Below are positions 11,820 to 31,410 of a stretch of 34,364 nucleotides of DNA, one piece after another. A program made the position numbers and the translations under genes. The notes under the pieces were generated by a model. That model made no database searches. It was given only the letters and a program-made list of their open reading frames with translations, and was not told the origin of the DNA. Location of the stretch: the NCBI GenBank assembly GCA_003552465.1, contig PULQ01000098.1, positions 1 through 34,364 of the forward strand, in the 5' to 3' direction. This stretch comes from Dehalococcoidia bacterium. GTDB lineage: Bacteria > Chloroflexota > Dehalococcoidia > GIF9 > AB-539-J10. Every line of letters starts with the position of its first letter. Within the stretch, counting starts at the first letter, position 1.

Positions 11820-12596
11820 ATGCTGGGAGCGATTGCAGGGGACATCATAGGGTCAGCCTTCGAGTGGAACCGAACCAAGCTCTACGACTTCAGACTGTTC
11901 TCACCAGCATCCACATTCACAGATGACACCGTGCTGACGGTAGCTGTGGCGGACTGCATCCTTCACGGGAAGGACTACGCAACCACCTTCAGGGAATACG
12001 GTCTCCGCTATCCCCACGCCGGCTGGGGAGGGATGTTCTTTCAGTGGCTCTTCAGCAACGATGCTGGGCCGTACAACAGCTTCGGCAATGGATCAGCAAT
12101 GCGCGTAAGCCCGATAGGCTTCGCCTTCGACACTCTGGAGGAGGTTCTGGCCGAGGCCACATGTTCCGCGGAGGTCTCTCACAACCACCCCGAGGGCATC
12201 AAGGGCGCCCGGGCAATTGCTTCGTGCATACTCCTGGCCAGGCAGGGCGAGAGCAAGGACGATATCAAGAGGTTCGTCGAGAACGAGTTCGGCTATGATC
12301 TGAGCCGAACGCTCGACGCTATTCGCCCGGGCTATCAGTTCGACGAAACCTGCCAGGGGTCGGTTCCGGAGGCGATCACAGCCTTACTGGAGTCGACCGA
12401 CTACGAGGACGCAGTGAGAAAGGCCGTCTCGCTGGGCGGAGACGCCGATACCCTGGCCTGCATGACCGGCGGCATCGCCCAGGCCTACTACAGGCTGATC
12501 CCCGCTCACATCGTGGCCGAAGCCAGAAGACGCTTGCCCGACGACTTCATTGCCATCATCAACGAGTTCGAGGCACGATGTTCCTGTCCACAGTAA
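11820..12596 (+). CDS. ADP-ribosylglycohydrolase (DraG-like) family protein
   Basis: MLGAIAGDIIGSAFEW..FTDDTVLTVAVAD...SFGNGSAMRVSPIGF...EVSHNHPEGIKGA...SLGGDADTLACMTGGIAQAYY are hallmark motifs. RBS AAGGAG. Confidence 0.93.
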   Translation: MLGAIAGDIIGSAFEWNRTKLYDFRLFSPASTFTDDTVLTVAVADCILHGKDYATTFREYGLRYPHAGWGGMFFQWLFSNDAGPYNSFGNGSAMRVSPIGFAFDTLEEVLAEATCSAEVSHNHPEGIKGARAIASCILLARQGESKDDIKRFVENEFGYDLSRTLDAIRPGYQFDETCQGSVPEAITALLESTDYEDAVRKAVSLGGDADTLACMTGGIAQAYYRLIPAHIVAEARRRLPDDFIAIINEFEARCSCPQ

Positions 12597-19123: not shown

Positions 19124-20689
19124 TCACGCCTCGCGGATCTCCAGTATCCTGTCAACCCGGAAGACTCTCTCTTCTTTCCGCTTGAGGCAGAAGGCGCGCA
19201 CGCCGATGTAGCTCTTGCCGGAGTACTCCATCTCTCCAACTACCTCTGGTCTGATACGCCTTCTTGACTTCTCATCATTGGGTTTTAGGTATGTTATGTC
19301 GAGCAGCGCCTCGTGCTCGATTGCCTGCCTGATCACCTCAACCTTATCATCAACGGGGAGGGCGCGTGCGGCCTTTCCGTATTGATACTTCGTCAAGAAC
19401 TTGACCACCCGGTAATCGGTCCAGATATGCTTTTTCAGAATCGGCTTCTTCAGGACAATGCCATCCAGCGTAGTGCATCGGCTCAACGCCACATAGGTCT
19501 GCCCGTGAGCGAACGCCCCTCGTCCGATATCAATGATCACCCTGTCGAACGTCTTGCCCTGGCTCTTGTGGATGGTCACCGCCCAGGCCAGCATAAGTGG
19601 GTATTGCTTGAATCTGCCGATGACTTCGGACTCAAGATGACCCTCCCGGACTGAGAAACTGTAGATCTCCCAGGTATGAGGCGTAATGTCTACAGTCTGA
19701 CCGTCGGCCAGTTCAGCCACTATGATGTCTTCGCCATTCTCTCGGATCACATCGATGATCTTCCCAACACTGCCATTAACCCAGCGACCATAGGGGTCGT
19801 TACTGACCATCATGATCTGCGCTCCCACCTTTACCACAAGGTCAACCGATGTGGGGAGATACTCGGCGGTGAACCTTCCTTCGATCTGTCCGGTAAAGGT
19901 ATAGGGCGTAGCATTCAGCCTTGCCAGCTCCCCAGTGTTGATCTCCTCAGCCAGCTTGTTGACTGTGGTCAGATAGACGTAGAAGTCATCGGCGGGTGGC
20001 TCGAACTCCGGCATGTGTCTGTCATTGAGGAGAGCTAACTCCTCCTCAGTAACGGAGTTGTTACGGATGGCGTTGAGCAGGTTGATGAAGTGCTCGTCAC
20101 GCTGGCGATAGACCTTCTCCAGTTCCACGAACTCCATGTCCAGCGAATCAAGCACCCTGGCGCTGTAGAAGTACGGAGTCTCGTAGACCGACCCGAACAC
20201 TTCCTTCTCAGTGCCTACGACAACGGGTGGTAACTGGTAGAGGTCGCCGATGAACACCATCTGAACCCCGCCGAAGGGCTTGCTGGCCCTCGGCCCATTG
20301 AGCCGTAGAAACGCATCCACGCAGTCCAGCAGGTCCGCTCTTACCATGGAGATCTCGTCAATGACAATGGCATCAAGGTTCCTGTAGATGCTCCTGGTCT
20401 CGGCATCAGGGTGGGTCTTCTTGACCTGGTCAATGGTTATGCCAGGCCTGAACCTGAAGAAGGAATGGATGGTCTGCCCCTTGACATTGAGGGCGGCAAC
20501 GCCAGTCGGAGCTAGCACCGCCACCTGCTTCTTCGTGGCATGCTGAAAGTAGTCCAGCAGTGTCGATTTGCCCGTTCCTGCCCGCCCTGTGATGAAGATG
20601 TTCCTGCCGGTGTGCTCCATGGTATGCAGAGCATGTTCAAACTGCTCGTTCAGCTCTATTGTCGCCTGTCTACGTCGTGGCTGCTGCAT
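19124..20689 (-). CDS. PIF1-like DNA helicase with a C-terminal WYL domain
   Basis: ITGRAGTGKSTLLDYF, LAPTGVAALNVKGQTIHSFF, IVIDEISMVRADLLD, IGDLYQLPPV, TIHKSQGKTFDRVIID, YVALSRCTTL; C-terminal VIRQAIEHEALLDITYLKPND...GKSYIGVRAFCLKRKEERVFRVDRILEI is WYL-like. Confidence 0.9.
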   Translation of the reverse strand: MQQPRRRQATIELNEQFEHALHTMEHTGRNIFITGRAGTGKSTLLDYFQHATKKQVAVLAPTGVAALNVKGQTIHSFFRFRPGITIDQVKKTHPDAETRSIYRNLDAIVIDEISMVRADLLDCVDAFLRLNGPRASKPFGGVQMVFIGDLYQLPPVVVGTEKEVFGSVYETPYFYSARVLDSLDMEFVELEKVYRQRDEHFINLLNAIRNNSVTEEELALLNDRHMPEFEPPADDFYVYLTTVNKLAEEINTGELARLNATPYTFTGQIEGRFTAEYLPTSVDLVVKVGAQIMMVSNDPYGRWVNGSVGKIIDVIRENGEDIIVAELADGQTVDITPHTWEIYSFSVREGHLESEVIGRFKQYPLMLAWAVTIHKSQGKTFDRVIIDIGRGAFAHGQTYVALSRCTTLDGIVLKKPILKKHIWTDYRVVKFLTKYQYGKAARALPVDDKVEVIRQAIEHEALLDITYLKPNDEKSRRRIRPEVVGEMEYSGKSYIGVRAFCLKRKEERVFRVDRILEIREA

Positions 20690-25191: not shown

Positions 25192-25608
25192 TTAGCCAGG
25201 CCCGTGCCTCATATCTTCTGCCAGCGCATCACGAAACTTGATGTACCTCACCAGTTCGTCCATGTCGAAGACGTAGTGGGTGCCGGGCGCATAGTCACAT
25301 CCGGGGCAGTTCTCGATCCCTCTTATCTGTCCGCCGGGATCGATCCAGTCGAGTATCTTCCCGCTCTTGACCAGTGAGAAGGGGAAGTACCAGGCCATGT
25401 ACCCGATCTGCATATCGTGGTACAGTAGGGGCCTGTCAATGAAGGAGGCTGTTCTGCAGCGAGGACAGACGAACAGGTTTGTCTTCCCATTCAGCAGAGC
25501 TGTCTTAGCTTCGGGGTTGACCTGGGCGTTGATGGTATCCCAGACCAGCGCCTCATCCTCTGCGCTGCAGTTGGGGCACTTTATCTCCATGTATCTGTGC
25601 AGAGTCAT
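25192..25608 (-). CDS. CpXC-domain-like zinc-binding protein (138 aa)
   Basis: MEIKCPNCSAEDEALVWDTINAQVNPEAKTALLNGKTNLFVCPRCRTASFIDRPLLYHDM is typical of CpXC proteins. Confidence 0.75.
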   Translation of the reverse strand: MTLHRYMEIKCPNCSAEDEALVWDTINAQVNPEAKTALLNGKTNLFVCPRCRTASFIDRPLLYHDMQIGYMAWYFPFSLVKSGKILDWIDPGGQIRGIENCPGCDYAPGTHYVFDMDELVRYIKFRDALAEDMRHGPG

Positions 25609-25619
25609 CTCGTATCTCC

Positions 25620-26213
25620 TTAGAGTGTTTTTCTCAGGTATGTGCTAAGCGACGGGGTCGGGCTACGCGTCGGTGGCCGGCGTGGTGGTGGCTCTGATCT
25701 GGCCAGTGGGCAGATTGCCGAGTGCAAGAAGACCGCGGAAACGGCCCAGCCATAAATGAGAATGTCGGTGACCGAGAACACGGACATCGCTCCCATGATG
25801 TAGGCGCCGTAGTAGCTCCCCTCCAGGTAACCGATGGCGAACTGGATGGAGGCAAGCACGACCGTCACGAGTCCCAGCGACCAGCAGAACGGCGACGGCT
25901 GGCGGCGGTATCTCCGTGCCCAGTGCAGGAGGTAGAAGAGAAGAAGTCGGGCGCCAGCGGCAAGGCCGCCGGCATAGCGCACTATCGTGCGTGGTGTGCC
26001 GACAAACCACTCGGGCAGGGTCACCGACGGGTTGATGCCGAGGAAACCGGGCTGGAGTTCGCCCAACGGCACACCGAGGGCCAGCGCGGTCACGATATGG
26101 GCTGCCTCGTGGGCAAGGACCGAGGCCGCCGCTATCGCCACTGTGTACAACATCAGCTTCATGGCCTCCCGGCGGCTGAGCCTCAATCCTTCAGGTCTTC
26201 TAATGCGGAGCAA
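25620..26213 (-). CDS. Integral membrane HExxH metallopeptidase-like (M50-type) protein
   Basis: MKLMLYTVAIAAASVLAHEAAHIVTALALGVPLGE and RYAGGLAAGARLLLFYLL. ATG at 26162, with a possible TTG start at 26213 behind AGGAG. The longer ORF in the track overlaps the upstream 48-aa gene. Confidence 0.65.
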   Translation of the reverse strand: MLRIRRPEGLRLSRREAMKLMLYTVAIAAASVLAHEAAHIVTALALGVPLGELQPGFLGINPSVTLPEWFVGTPRTIVRYAGGLAAGARLLLFYLLHWARRYRRQPSPFCWSLGLVTVVLASIQFAIGYLEGSYYGAYIMGAMSVFSVTDILIYGWAVSAVFLHSAICPLARSEPPPRRPPTRSPTPSLSTYLRKTL

Positions 26214-26227
26214 TGCCTGCTCCTCTC

Positions 26228-26374
26228 CTATCCTTCCACATAGCCCGTGCCGTCGCAGACCGGGCATTCGTCGGTCTGGCGGACTCCGATCGCCCCTTTC
26301 AGCAGAGGCGGGAGGTCCTTCCTGGGCACCTGTCCGCTGCCCTTGCACTTGGGACACTTCACCGGATGCTTCAT
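26228..26374 (-). CDS. DnaJ-type cysteine-rich (CxxCxGxG) small protein, 48 aa, not in the ORF track
   Basis: MKHPVKCPKCKGSGQVPRKDLPPLLKGAIGVRQTDECPVCDGTGYVEG*; GGAGGTGAAAGCT before ATG. Confidence 0.75.
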   Translation of the reverse strand: MKHPVKCPKCKGSGQVPRKDLPPLLKGAIGVRQTDECPVCDGTGYVEG

Positions 26375-26379
26375 AGCTT

Positions 26380-26583
26380 TCACCTCCTTCCATTGCGCTT
26401 TTTGCCCGGGGACATGACCATCCTTACAGCCGTCACGGGGATTCCGATGACAACGGCGACCATTATGAGCCTGGTGGTGATCGACACCAGCAGGTCGAAG
26501 TCCCTCAGGCCGATCAGCACGAGTACTGTGACGCCGAGCAGCAGCGAGGGCATGATGATCACCAGTAGCACCTTCCTCAGCAC
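26380..26583 (-). CDS. Small membrane protein (67 aa, two predicted TM helices)
   Basis: MLRKVLLVIIMPSLLLGVTVLVLIGLRDFDLLVSITTRLIMVAVVIGIPVTAVRMV; start overlaps the 3' end of the AAA+ gene by 7 nt. Confidence 0.7.
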   Translation of the reverse strand: MLRKVLLVIIMPSLLLGVTVLVLIGLRDFDLLVSITTRLIMVAVVIGIPVTAVRMVMSPGKKRNGRR

Positions 26584-27986
26584 CGGTTCTCCTCCGGTGC
26601 CGTCAGGAAGGCTATGTGGTCACCGTTGTGGTTGTTGCCGATATCGAATCCCAGGCGACGTCTGTTTCTGCCGTTGATTCGTGAGATCACCAGGTCGACG
26701 TCCTCCTTCGTCACGTCGAGTTGGTGCGAAGATGCCTGAGCAGGTTCCTCCGGGTATTCAATGGCCAGGCCGTACACGATCTCCTGAAGCTGCGCTGGAG
26801 TGCAGTCGTGTGCCCTGCAGGCTATGTAGTCCTGTATCTGCCCATCTATGGGGATCCTCCGGCACAGGAGTCCCACCAGTTCCCGGCGCTCTTCCTCTGT
26901 GGGGAGCGAGAGCTTGACTACTCGGTCGAACCTCGATGGTCGCCGGCTGATGGCCCGGTCCAGTGCCTCCCAGTTGTTGGTCGTGGCCACGGTAACCACC
27001 TCCTGCCTTTGCTCTACTCCATCCAGCACATTGAGCAGGGAGAGCAGTGCCGGTCCGTGCTGATAGTGATACTCCTCCCGGTTTAGCCCGATCAGGTCTA
27101 TGTCCTCAATGAACACGATACAGGGACTGAGGTCCTGCGCCATCTCGTAGAGGTCGGTGATGTACTCGTCCATGCACATCTTGTAGGCGTTGACCGTGAT
27201 GCAGGTGATGCCTTCGGATTCTGCCATCAGCGCCCTGCAGATCAGCGTCTTGCCCGTGCCCGGCTCGCCCGCTAGCAACACCCCTCTCTTGCTAGGTATG
27301 CCGTATTCCACCCAGCGTTCTCTGCCCCTGAGAAAGTCTACGGTGTTGGCCCTGACCTCCCCCTTTGTCGCGGGATCGAGTATGATGCCGTCCCATGAAG
27401 TGCCCCTGACGTTCAGGAAGTGGACCCGTCCGGAGAACTCGACATTCTGTCCGCGGTAGATGTTCTCTTTCTTGGCGATGTTCATGAGGCCATCGATAAA
27501 CGACTTGACGCGCTCTTTCTTGTCTTCCGGGCCTTGCACCTGCACTGACCCAACATATCTGGGGTTGAGGTCGATGGTGACGATGAAGCGGTCGAGACCC
27601 TTCTCCACGAGCAACTGAGCGCAGACCGGCAGGTTCTCCCGTTCCCCGTAGGCGGTGCTGACGTCAATGTAGACCGGCTCGGCCGCTTCGTAACCTATGA
27701 TGTCTACGACGTTCCACTGTTCTCGCTCCATGTGGCGATGAAGAGCCCAGGTGAGAAGCTCGATGTAGTACCTGGGCATGATGCCCACCGCGGTTGCCCG
27801 CTGTCCCGACCCGAGGAACTCATCCATGATTACCTGGTGCTTGCGCAGGATCTTCTGCCTTTGTTTGCGCCTCCAGCTTGCGAAGGAGGGCACCTCGTCA
27901 TCGTCGTCGTCACCGTCCAGCATCGCTTCCGCCAGTTGCTCCTCTTCGTTCATGTCTTGCTCGCTACCTCCTTCACCGTCGATCAT
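26577..27986 (-). CDS. AAA+ ATPase (Cdc48/FtsH-type AAA core) with a novel-looking N-terminal domain
   Basis: Walker A LLAGEPGTGKTLICRALM; Walker B CIVFIEDIDLIG; sensor VATTNNWEALDRAI; SRRPSRFDRVVKLSLP. Confidence 0.88.
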   Translation of the reverse strand: MIDGEGGSEQDMNEEEQLAEAMLDGDDDDDEVPSFASWRRKQRQKILRKHQVIMDEFLGSGQRATAVGIMPRYYIELLTWALHRHMEREQWNVVDIIGYEAAEPVYIDVSTAYGERENLPVCAQLLVEKGLDRFIVTIDLNPRYVGSVQVQGPEDKKERVKSFIDGLMNIAKKENIYRGQNVEFSGRVHFLNVRGTSWDGIILDPATKGEVRANTVDFLRGRERWVEYGIPSKRGVLLAGEPGTGKTLICRALMAESEGITCITVNAYKMCMDEYITDLYEMAQDLSPCIVFIEDIDLIGLNREEYHYQHGPALLSLLNVLDGVEQRQEVVTVATTNNWEALDRAISRRPSRFDRVVKLSLPTEEERRELVGLLCRRIPIDGQIQDYIACRAHDCTPAQLQEIVYGLAIEYPEEPAQASSHQLDVTKEDVDLVISRINGRNRRRLGFDIGNNHNGDHIAFLTAPEENRC

Positions 27987-28008
27987 TGCGGTACGAGTTT
28001 AGCAGGAG

Positions 28009-28028
28009 GATGTGACACATCATGTCAA
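28009..28028 (-). promoter_or_regulatory. Candidate promoter/operator of the AAA+ operon: TTGACA followed by palindrome gatgtg-t-cacatc
   Basis: Reverse strand TTTTGACATGATGTGTCACATCCTCC; 6-1-6 inverted repeat at 28009-28021; -35-like TTGACA at 28023-28028. No good -10. Confidence 0.4.
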
Positions 28029-28076
28029 AACTGCCACGTATCTGCGCGCATTTCACGATTGAGAACGAAAGGGCTA

Positions 28077-28106
28077 TTGACATTTCTGGCGGGCAGGTTG
28101 GATAAT
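28077..28106 (+). promoter_or_regulatory. Sigma-70-type promoter of the WYL regulator gene
   Basis: TTGACA (28077-28082), 18-bp spacer, GATAAT (28101-28106), ATG at 28138. Confidence 0.6.
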
Positions 28107-28137
28107 ACGGTTGATGATTATTCCAGGGGAGTCGCTC

Positions 28138-29109
28138 ATGGAAGATAAGGTTCGGAAGACGGAACGGCTGATCCAGATATGGGTCCTGCTGGCGGACAAT
28201 CCGAACGGCTTTAGCATCAAGGAGCTTGCCAGCAGGTTCGGGGTTAACATCCGCACCGTCTACCGCGACATGACGTCGCTGGGAACCGATCTGCACGTGC
28301 CCGTTCGTGATGATAAAGGGCGGTGGAAGATCGAGCCAGGGTACCGGCTGCCTCCGATTCAGTTCACGTTGTCCGAGGCGCTCAACATCTTCCTTGCCGC
28401 GAGGCTGATGCTGCGGTACTCCAACCGCTATGATCCGAACACCGACGCCACCTTCACCAAGCTCAGCGCGGTGCTACCGACTACGCTGGCGGAACAGGTG
28501 CGCAAGACCATGGCATGGATGCAGAAGCTCGAGAAGAACGAGAAACACCTGCGCATCCTGTCGACTGTGGCCGAGGCCTGGGTGTCCCAGCGGAGACTGA
28601 AGATCGAGTACAGGTCGCTGCCGGCGAAAGCGGCAGTCGAGCGGATCATCGAGCCCTACTACATCGAGCCTGCTGCGCCAGGACATGCCAGCTATGTGAT
28701 CGCTCACTGCCACCGCACCGGAAAGCTGCGCACCTTCAAGATCGAACGGATCGAGTCGGCCGAGCTTACCAACCAATCTTATACGGTCCCGGCTGACTTC
28801 GATGCCAACGAGTTCTTCGGCTCATCGTGGGGCATCGTCGTGGAAGGCGAGGTCCAGACTGTGAAGCTGAAGATCGAGGATAGGGAACTGATCAGGCTTA
28901 TGAGCGAGACAGTGTGGCACCCGTCGCAGGTGCTGGACAAGAAGAATGACGGCTCGATGGTGATGACGCTCCGGGTGACCGATACTGTCGAGCTCTACTC
29001 CTGGATACTCGGTTGGGGTGAGTATGTGGAGGTGCTGGAGCCAAAGGAACTGCGGCAGGAGATCATAGATACAGCTAAGAACGTGGTGAAGCTTTATGAG
29101 AAGGGGTAG
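28138..29109 (+). CDS. WYL-domain transcriptional regulator (HTH + WYL, YafY-like)
   Basis: KTERLIQIWVLLADNPNGFSIKELASRFGVNIRTVYRDMTSLGTDLHVPVRDDKGRWKIEPGYRLPPIQFTLSEAL, plus WYL-type C-terminus. Start could also be 28111. Confidence 0.88.
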   Translation: MEDKVRKTERLIQIWVLLADNPNGFSIKELASRFGVNIRTVYRDMTSLGTDLHVPVRDDKGRWKIEPGYRLPPIQFTLSEALNIFLAARLMLRYSNRYDPNTDATFTKLSAVLPTTLAEQVRKTMAWMQKLEKNEKHLRILSTVAEAWVSQRRLKIEYRSLPAKAAVERIIEPYYIEPAAPGHASYVIAHCHRTGKLRTFKIERIESAELTNQSYTVPADFDANEFFGSSWGIVVEGEVQTVKLKIEDRELIRLMSETVWHPSQVLDKKNDGSMVMTLRVTDTVELYSWILGWGEYVEVLEPKELRQEIIDTAKNVVKLYEKG

Positions 29110-29170: not shown

Positions 29171-29479
29171 ATGGGATTCTCATGGGATACTGTACAACGT
29201 GTTTGGAGCAGGCAAGATGGACTGTGTGCACATTGCGGCAAGCGACTTGTGAAAGCCAACTATCAGAGCGGTACCTGGGGCGCATGGCATGCGCATCACC
29301 GCATACCGGAGAGAATGGGAGGCTCTCACTACTTGGGCAACTGCGTGCTGCTATGTGTTAATCAGCCGAACTGCCATCTGTATGTCGGGCACGACGGCAA
29401 CTACTCGAATCGCGTTGTGATACACCGCGAAGATCTACCTTATCTACAGGGCTATGATGGACCGTACTATATTCTCTAG
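29171..29479 (+). CDS. HNH endonuclease domain protein (102 aa)
   Basis: CAHCGKRL...WHAHHRIPERMGGSHYLGNCVLLCVNQPNCHLYVGH; RBS AAGGAGG. Confidence 0.8.
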   Translation: MGFSWDTVQRVWSRQDGLCAHCGKRLVKANYQSGTWGAWHAHHRIPERMGGSHYLGNCVLLCVNQPNCHLYVGHDGNYSNRVVIHREDLPYLQGYDGPYYIL

Positions 29480-29703: not shown

Positions 29704-30825
29704 ATGTCGAACAAGGAATACGTGAAGTATATAGCTCCTGATCTGGCAGCTAAGCTGGCCTCGGACCTCCACTCAAGTGCTGAGGAAAACGTCATATCCT
29801 CGATGTTAGCGGCATCCCTGAATGAATCTGAGCATTTCATGAAGTGGTTGTGTCGGGGCAAGGCAGGCTTCATGCGTCGTAAGAGGGATTTCGGGGAGCT
29901 ATGGGCAGCTGCAAACGATAGAATTCCGCAAATAGTCACGGATCACGCGCCAGCGTGTACGTACCAGCATCCAGACATACTGATTTGGCATAAGCAGGAC
30001 GAAGGTGATTGGGACGAGGCCTTCAAGGCGAAGACTCCCGACGATAAGAAGGCTGCTATGCGCAGAGTGCGCGCCGTGTTCATTGAGGTCAAGAAGACCT
30101 CTCTAGGTGAAGATGAAAAGGAGAAGTACAAGCAGTTCGTTGAATGCATTTCCCACATGTGGAGGGGCGAGAAGTCTGAACTCGTCAGGTTCGTCATGAT
30201 ATCGTCCCATGACGCGTGGACTGCCGAACGGATTAAGAGTGCAAGCCGACGAGATCGACGCAGGGCGGACGAGAAGCGCTGGAATGAAGTCCTCAAGTAT
30301 CGGAGAGGGCGGGTCAAACCGGTCCATGTCACATTTCACGATATCTTCGGTGAGCTCAAACAGAACGAGAGAGCGTATAGAGGGTGCAGCGTTATTCCGC
30401 TGTTCAGGAGTTATCTGGCACTGTATACTGCGCAAGTTGATGATATGTCCTACAGGAAGAGTTGGGAGTACCTGGTGAAGTATCATGGACATGATCAGTC
30501 GGGGCTAAGAAGGGAGATCGTCAACTCGATAAGGGAACTAGCAACGATAATGGGCATCTCACCGGAAAGAGTATGGAACCTTGAACAGAAGATGAGGAAG
30601 ACAAAACTCATCACGGTTATCGAACATGCAGCAGATAAGTATCGCCTCAGTCTGCATGATGAGGCCGCTTATGCGGTTCCCGAGGATGAGCTTCATCTGA
30701 GGGTCTTGAAGGGAAGGAAGCCGATCAGATTCTATCTTCGTGACGCATCGGCAGGCAGCATCACAGAGAAGATGCGACATGTTAGGAACCGACTGCGCAA
30801 ACTGCGGGAGTGTCAGAGTGAATGA
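29704..30825 (+). CDS. Putative PD-(D/E)XK nuclease-like protein (373 aa)
   Basis: HPDILIWHKQ...RAVFIEVKKTSLGEDEKEKYKQF is a D...E-x-K core; C-terminal helix-rich and basic. Confidence 0.6.
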   Translation: MSNKEYVKYIAPDLAAKLASDLHSSAEENVISSMLAASLNESEHFMKWLCRGKAGFMRRKRDFGELWAAANDRIPQIVTDHAPACTYQHPDILIWHKQDEGDWDEAFKAKTPDDKKAAMRRVRAVFIEVKKTSLGEDEKEKYKQFVECISHMWRGEKSELVRFVMISSHDAWTAERIKSASRRDRRRADEKRWNEVLKYRRGRVKPVHVTFHDIFGELKQNERAYRGCSVIPLFRSYLALYTAQVDDMSYRKSWEYLVKYHGHDQSGLRREIVNSIRELATIMGISPERVWNLEQKMRKTKLITVIEHAADKYRLSLHDEAAYAVPEDELHLRVLKGRKPIRFYLRDASAGSITEKMRHVRNRLRKLRECQSE

Positions 30826-30900: not shown

Positions 30901-31410
30901 ATGGTAAGCACGACAGACGCCTATCTCGACATCGAAACCACCGGCCTCTCCTGGAAGGATGCCGGCATAACCGTCATCGGCATCTACCTGGTCAATGGCG
31001 TGGATGACAGGCTGGTGCAACTGGTGGGTATGGATGTGACTGCCGACAATCTCCTTGAGTCTCTGGCCGGGGTGAAGGAGATCTACACCTATAATGGGAG
31101 CGGCTTCGATCTACCCTTCATCCACGGCTCGCTCGATGTAGATCTGGAGGGTCTCTTCAACCATCACGATTTGATGCTTGACTGCTGGCGCCGCAACCTC
31201 TACGGCGGTTTCAAGGCAGTTGAGCAGCAACTGGGCATCCCGCGCCAGCTTCAGGGCATCAGCGGATTGGATGCGGTGCGGCTGTGGTGGAGATACCTGG
31301 AAGGTGGCGACCTGGATGCCTTGGCTACGTTGCTTGAGTACAACCGGGAAGACGTGATGAACCTCAGGGTTCTGAGGGAGAGGTTCGATGGGTCGCAACG
31401 CCGTGCTTAA
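30901..31410 (+). CDS. RNase H-like exonuclease (YprB/RNase_H_2-type)
   Basis: AYLDIETTGLSWKDAGITVIGIY, IYTYNGSGFDLPFI, HHDLMLDCWRR, LLEYNREDVMNLRVL (DEDD-type motifs). Confidence 0.85.
   Translation: MVSTTDAYLDIETTGLSWKDAGITVIGIYLVNGVDDRLVQLVGMDVTADNLLESLAGVKEIYTYNGSGFDLPFIHGSLDVDLEGLFNHHDLMLDCWRRNLYGGFKAVEQQLGIPRQLQGISGLDAVRLWWRYLEGGDLDALATLLEYNREDVMNLRVLRERFDGSQRRA

Follow-up and report, generated by a model that had tools for sequence, protein, structure and literature searches.

The DNA that we analyzed (34,364 nucleotides; hereafter, the window) is a single contig, G000:C163, of a 1.8-Mb draft genome that consists of 167 contigs. Between positions 25192 and 29109, the window carries five minus-strand genes and a divergently transcribed gene for a WYL regulator, and all six are open and tightly packed (Table 1). 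The arrangement reported in the initial annotation, five closely spaced and partly overlapping minus-strand genes facing away from the WYL gene, was confirmed, with the TM67 reading frame starting within the region of the AAA stop codon. The length of 48 aa proposed for the CxxCxGxG protein (ZnJ) is upheld by its ATG, and the near-consensus WYL promoter was recovered by the consensus scan.

Table 1. Genes and regulatory features of the AAA/WYL locus and the adjoining genes in the window
Feature	Position	Strand	Remarks
AAA ATPase, 458 aa	26577..27953	-	N-terminal alpha/beta domain and one AAA domain; ORF 26577-27986
TM67, 67 aa, two hydrophobic segments	26380..26583	-	Start overlaps AAA stop
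ZnJ, 48-aa DnaJ-type zinc protein	26228..26374	-	Motif CPKCKGSG...CPVCDGTG; ATG 26374
M50-like integral membrane protein, HEAAH motif, 197 aa	25620..26213	-	TTG start 26213
CpXC protein, 138 aa	25192..25608	-	PF14353 67.7 bits, cut-off 25.4
WYL regulator, wHTH-WYL-WCX, 323 aa	28138..29109	+	ATG 28138
Candidate WYL operator TGTGACACATCATGTCAAA	28011..28029		9 bp upstream of AAA -10
WYL gene promoter TTGACA-18-GATAAT	28077..28106	+	Consensus scan, 11/12
HNH nuclease gene after WYL	29171..29479	+	PF01844 E=9e-6; possibly same transcript as WYL
373-aa protein	29704..30825	+	No notable Pfam match; retained after WYL in the C38 copy; homologue in L285
RNase H-like exonuclease (PF13482)	30901..31410	+	PF13482 E=3e-35; recurrent neighbor

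Ribosome-binding sites and alignments of homologues were used to refine start codons. For the AAA gene, both the alignment and the ribosome-binding site AAGGAGGT indicate that translation probably begins at Met12 of the 469-aa open reading frame, at 27953, and this start is favored because a transcript from the -10 element (TAAACT, 27996-28001, minus strand) would have hardly any leader if translation began at 27986. The Ka/Ks ratios between copies of the locus were 0.04-0.15 for ZnJ, 0.23-0.61 for TM67, 0.15-0.20 for the M50-like gene, and 0.21 for the CpXC gene. These ratios (0.04-0.61) mark the small open reading frames as real genes. As judged from these comparisons, every gene compared between copies is under purifying selection, ZnJ the most and TM67 the least.

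The N-terminal part of the AAA protein is an alpha/beta domain that spans residues ~55-205 of the 469-aa reading frame. One AAA domain follows (Pfam PF00004, E=2.9e-25), which is nearest to that of VCP/CDC48 by sequence; its Walker A, Walker B, and sensor 1 motifs are intact, as is the arginine-finger segment RPSRFDR. Alignment revealed a six-residue gap opposite the VCP pore loop 1, in a region that is uniform across the family, and an aromatic threading loop of the FtsH/VCP type is absent family-wide. Hydropathy analysis predicted no hydrophobic or transmembrane segment in the AAA chain, and no protease domain was found after residue ~410. The best PDB matches of the full-length predicted model (pLDDT 77, pTM 0.73) in Foldseek were YjoB (7.5e-18) and Bcs1, ahead of FtsH and PAN, with 400-470 columns aligned and low TM-scores (0.36-0.52). 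The N-terminal domain alone (model pLDDT 86) had no significant structural match, and Bcs1 recurred there at E values of 0.012-0.027. The module AAA protein resembles Bcs1 and YjoB in having no threading-type pore loop, and it may share with them the combination of an N-domain with a single AAA domain, but its AAA sequence is nearer to VCP and the likeness of its N-domain taken by itself is not significant. It also differs from Bcs1 in that each Bcs1 subunit has a transmembrane segment, whereas the module encodes a separate two-TM peptide. Bcs1 moves folded protein through a concerted, non-threading cycle (PMC11143374, PMC12219900), and we take this cycle as a lead for the mechanism of the AAA protein rather than as proof of membership in the Bcs1 family.

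The two small proteins encoded downstream recur as a pair, which follows the AAA gene in G000, G022, and G057. TM67 has hydropathy peaks at residues 6-24 and 39-57, matched no Pfam family, and has homologues at five loci (L031, L032, L034, L155, and L277). ZnJ matched the Pfam family DnaJ_CXXCXGXG with E=1.7e-6, below the cut-off, and its copies are 73-98% identical to one another. At L277 (G137:C75, 3230-3720), the operator described below stands before homologues of TM67 and ZnJ and a gene for a zinc-ribbon protein. Because G137 lacks the AAA gene, TM67 and ZnJ may not be partners of the AAA protein.

The initial annotation described the fourth gene product as an M50-like membrane protein with a HEAAH motif. 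The HExxH motif is indeed kept in all nine homologues, with the HEAAH form found in the window and close copies, and seven of the nine match PF02163 (Peptidase_M50) weakly (best 6.7e-5); the window protein itself matched no Pfam family. H35, E36, H39, GG82-83, and E131G132 are invariant across the nine. Class-wide 'M50' matches of 89-95 aa (L160, L172, and L174) were left out, being fragments or lacking HExxH, and no M50-like relatives were found in viral contigs. The assignment of the fifth product to the CpXC family was borne out well above the Pfam cut-off (Table 1). The CpXC gene follows the AAA gene in G000 and G055, a homologue lies directly after the AAA gene at L158, and CpXC homologues are also found alone. 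A gene for an ADP-ribosylglycohydrolase similar to the one at 11820-12596 of the window adjoins a stand-alone M50-like homologue at L168.

The source genome contains further copies of the locus, which may be strain variants within the draft assembly. The second, on contig C159, has an AAA gene whose product is 68% identical to that of the window and a truncated CpXC gene. The third is split between C69 (an AAA fragment with 96% identity, TM67, ZnJ, M50, CpXC, and GmrSD) and probably C38, where the order is WYL, a zinc-ribbon gene in place of HNH, the homologue of the gene at 29704, and the RNase H-like gene. On C69 (L032, 1-2958), GmrSD is cut short beside IS21-type istA/istB, and the frames from the AAA fragment through CpXC are still open. 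Another RNase H-like copy (83%) at G000:C164:31306-31788, with a fragment at 28399, possibly marks another related island.

The close AAA family has a patchy distribution: among 393 Dehalococcoidia genomes in 225 genera, 18 genomes from 16 genera have it. AAA matches below 1e-100 in the phylum sample were confined to Dehalococcoidia, with distant relatives at 1e-36 to 1e-50 in other Chloroflexota, and among the matches listed in the GTDB genome scan there were at least eight near-full-length relatives, all from Dehalococcoidia or Chloroflexi. A search of plasmids and phages returned generic AAA proteins only, below ~36% identity. Viral contigs (L175-L199) carry distant AAA relatives, 25-33% identical, in which, as in distant relatives from other Chloroflexota, the similarity extends into the N-domain. 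The near-identical contigs L035 and L155, from genomes of different families (G005 and G057), were counted once; their near-identity may reflect misbinning or recent transfer.

Upstream sequence of 1 kb or more was available for 19 AAA loci, of which 14 carry a divergent WYL gene of one subfamily; two of the five that do not have only about 1 kb of sequence. AAA distances are correlated with WYL distances (r=0.78, n=14, uncorrected for shared ancestry). The genes downstream of AAA vary. Elsewhere, the AAA gene is followed by a zinc-ribbon membrane protein (G134 and G051), by another CxxCxGxG protein (G370), or by nothing alike; at L033 (G018:C112, 1233-3098), a gene for a ClpA/B-like ATPase follows it. 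This varied cargo indicates that the theme is an AAA protein with small membrane and zinc proteins and that the exact five-gene set is local. The neighborhood survey found the full gene order only in copies inside the source genome, and we therefore rejected the five-gene set, which had been put forward as one conserved system, as a conserved unit. Rare adjacency of the AAA and HExxH genes had been named in advance as counting against that system, and this is what was observed: the M50-like gene lies downstream of AAA in three genomes (G000, G015, and the distant G083), is absent from most AAA loci, and has several homologues that occur without AAA. By sequence comparison, the recurring unit is the AAA gene with its divergent WYL gene.

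This linkage extends to the DNA between the two genes. The WYL protein contains, in order, HTH_11 (19-79), WYL (149-218), and WCX (248-325) domains. The WYL/AAA gaps share a palindrome, TGTGACA-N5-7-TGTCACA (19-21 bp), that lies over the AAA promoter, and 12 of the 14 gaps contain a match of 12/14 or better, each equaled in at most 1 of 300 shuffles. The weaker gaps are those of L164, with a score of 11, and L038, a WYL/AAA pair without an operator, which scores only 9. The window site matches TGTGACA-N5-TGTCACA at 13 of 14 positions, which none of 300 shuffles equaled, and nothing else in the 34 kb reaches 12/14. Since the motif was first spotted by eye in these same loci, the shuffle values are descriptive, and the genome-wide positions provide the fairer test. 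In 19 genomes, the strict pattern occurred at 13 sites, nine of them at AAA/WYL loci, and the reversed control gave two. With one mismatch allowed, the source genome has three operator places, all in AAA/WYL loci, namely both AAA promoters and, on C159, the region before the NOV_C gene that follows WYL; the reversed control yielded two as well, so that the weight lies in where the places are rather than in their number. Because the palindrome in the AAA promoter is conserved and goes along with the regulator, the link between WYL and AAA is firmer than adjacency alone would make it. The regulatory unit composed of AAA, WYL, and the candidate operator is well supported by these comparisons. The initial annotation's expectation that a WYL-linked AAA module would recur among defense-type genes holds in many genomes.

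The operator is also found away from the AAA promoter. On the other side of the WYL gene, it precedes the RNase H-like gene (G314 and L046) and uncharacterized genes (G022, G057, and G137); elsewhere it stands before a PD-(D/E)XK gene (G055), a CpXC gene (G240), the TM67-ZnJ pair without AAA (G137), and cas3 (G160). The close AAA gene is absent from G137, G240, and G176. At L278 (G240:C209, 3407-6694), a row of genes beside WYL consists of RNase H-like, CpXC, and DUF2779-type members, with the operator at the RNase H/CpXC junction. The sequence of the recognition helix is not a clean predictor of the operator among the WYL proteins: L159 and L165 differ in the helix yet have the site, and L282, L283, and L290 share the helix and lack the site.

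One could envision that the genes have no shared function and that the AAA-WYL pair simply travels with unrelated cargo as part of a variable island, which would fit the cargo that differs by locus and the M50 and CpXC homologues that occur alone. We consider this quite unlikely, because one operator type stands before AAA, CpXC, TM67-ZnJ, and nuclease genes across genomes and because TM67 and ZnJ travel as a pair. Another scenario is membrane proteolysis, in which the AAA protein would feed the M50-like HEAAH protease in the manner of FtsH or IetAS. The HEAAH gene downstream of AAA in three genomes, including the distant G083, and the top PADLOC match of the AAA protein, IetA (66.5 bits), are consistent with such a pair, and IetAS likewise comprises an AAA ATPase and a protease, a combination of genes sometimes seen here. 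The IetA alignment, however, is limited to residues 200-405, the AAA domain only; the protease here is an M50-like metalloprotease rather than a subtilase, and no subtilase IetS was recognized in the module or the flanking genes scanned. FtsH is an AAA domain fused to an M41 HExxH domain and has an aromatic pore loop, whereas the module AAA protein has neither. Since most AAA loci lack the protease, it is not essential to the family. FtsH-like or IetAS-like proteolysis was therefore rejected as very unlikely, and the membrane AAA/protease module of the initial annotation is weakened by the optional protease and by an AAA protein with neither a predicted transmembrane segment nor a threading pore loop.

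The surroundings hold restriction and nuclease genes. The window encodes an Eco57I-type methylase, Mrr, an LmuB-like SMC protein, GmrSD, and HNH, and the RNase H-like gene is found close to AAA or WYL in seven genomes (G000, G022, G314, G057, G055, G083, and G240). The same island also encodes a PIF1-like helicase with a C-terminal WYL domain (19124-20689). PADLOC matched no complete gene set of a known defense system; it reported weak IetA/TRIP13 matches for the AAA protein and a generic match for the WYL protein, and none for TM67, the M50-like protein, or the CpXC protein. No description of the AAA/WYL module was found in the literature searched. The closest parallels are the regulators BrxR (BREX) and CapW (CBASS), which have the same wHTH-WYL-WCX architecture, lie in defense islands, and bind similar ~20-bp palindromes over the promoters of adjacent accessory defense operons (PMC9122588, PMC9122601). 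The locus described here differs in its targets, a new AAA module and nucleases rather than BREX or CBASS, in its candidate operator, which is a different site, and in its divergent layout, in which sites often flank the regulator on both sides.

SiwR, PafBC, and DriD, which act in genotoxic stress, are likewise WYL transcription factors that adjoin their target genes; the targets differ. In an alternative reading, the locus belongs to a DNA-damage response regulon rather than to phage defense. The WYL protein would then sense single-stranded DNA as DriD, PafBC, or SiwR do, and the AAA module and the nucleases would aid repair or protein quality control. Binding of single-stranded DNA and a response to genotoxic stress are known for several WYL regulators (PMC10693628). 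The gene for the RNase H-like exonuclease is near-universal and single-copy in most genomes tested, which fits repair as well as defense. More distant members of the WYL subfamily adjoin type I CRISPR-Cas genes (Cas3, Csd1, or Cas6), which speaks for the reading put forward below; that these relatives lack the operator speaks for a damage regulon. The patchy distribution, the several copies in one genome, and the restriction and nuclease surroundings argue against a damage regulon, as does one operator upstream of cas3, a perfect palindrome ~330 bp from the type I gene (L300, G160:C145, 1501). We regard a damage regulon as possible, with some doubt.

The reading that we put forward, to which we give about an even chance, is that of an AAA remodeling module that is inducible, is recruited to the membrane, and belongs to a WYL regulon that also includes nucleases, serving in nucleic-acid stress or phage defense. 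A dimeric WYL protein would bind the ~19-21 bp palindrome that overlaps the AAA promoter. In many loci, it would also occupy another site, ahead of the gene (often for a nuclease) that flanks WYL on the side away from AAA. Infection or DNA damage might be sensed by its WYL domain through a nucleotide or nucleic-acid signal, whereupon both sides would be switched on. The AAA ring could then remodel folded proteins as Bcs1 and YjoB do, with no threading or unfolding; TM67, translationally coupled to AAA, may recruit the ring to the membrane, and ZnJ may be an adaptor for the substrate or the ring. The M50-like and CpXC genes would be optional add-ons, and the nucleases of the regulon would attack or process DNA. 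The genes, their pairing, the operator motif, the loss of the pore loop, and purifying selection are read directly from the sequences. Binding by the WYL protein, the direction of control, the signal, ring formation, recruitment, and the target are what we infer, and the same holds for a role of the AAA/WYL module in phage defense. A narrower version, in which the module would be a split Bcs1, that is, a non-threading AAA ring whose membrane part is the separate two-TM peptide, with the 48-aa zinc protein as adaptor, switched by WYL together with nucleases and directed against phage, seems unlikely.

The class Dehalococcoidia includes organohalide-respiring bacteria. If the proposed module is real, the class would gain a WYL regulon whose operator can be read, and further members could be found by sequence alone. 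A single switch would join several nucleases to two very small conserved proteins and an AAA family not described before, and the role of a non-threading bacterial AAA protein would become directly testable.
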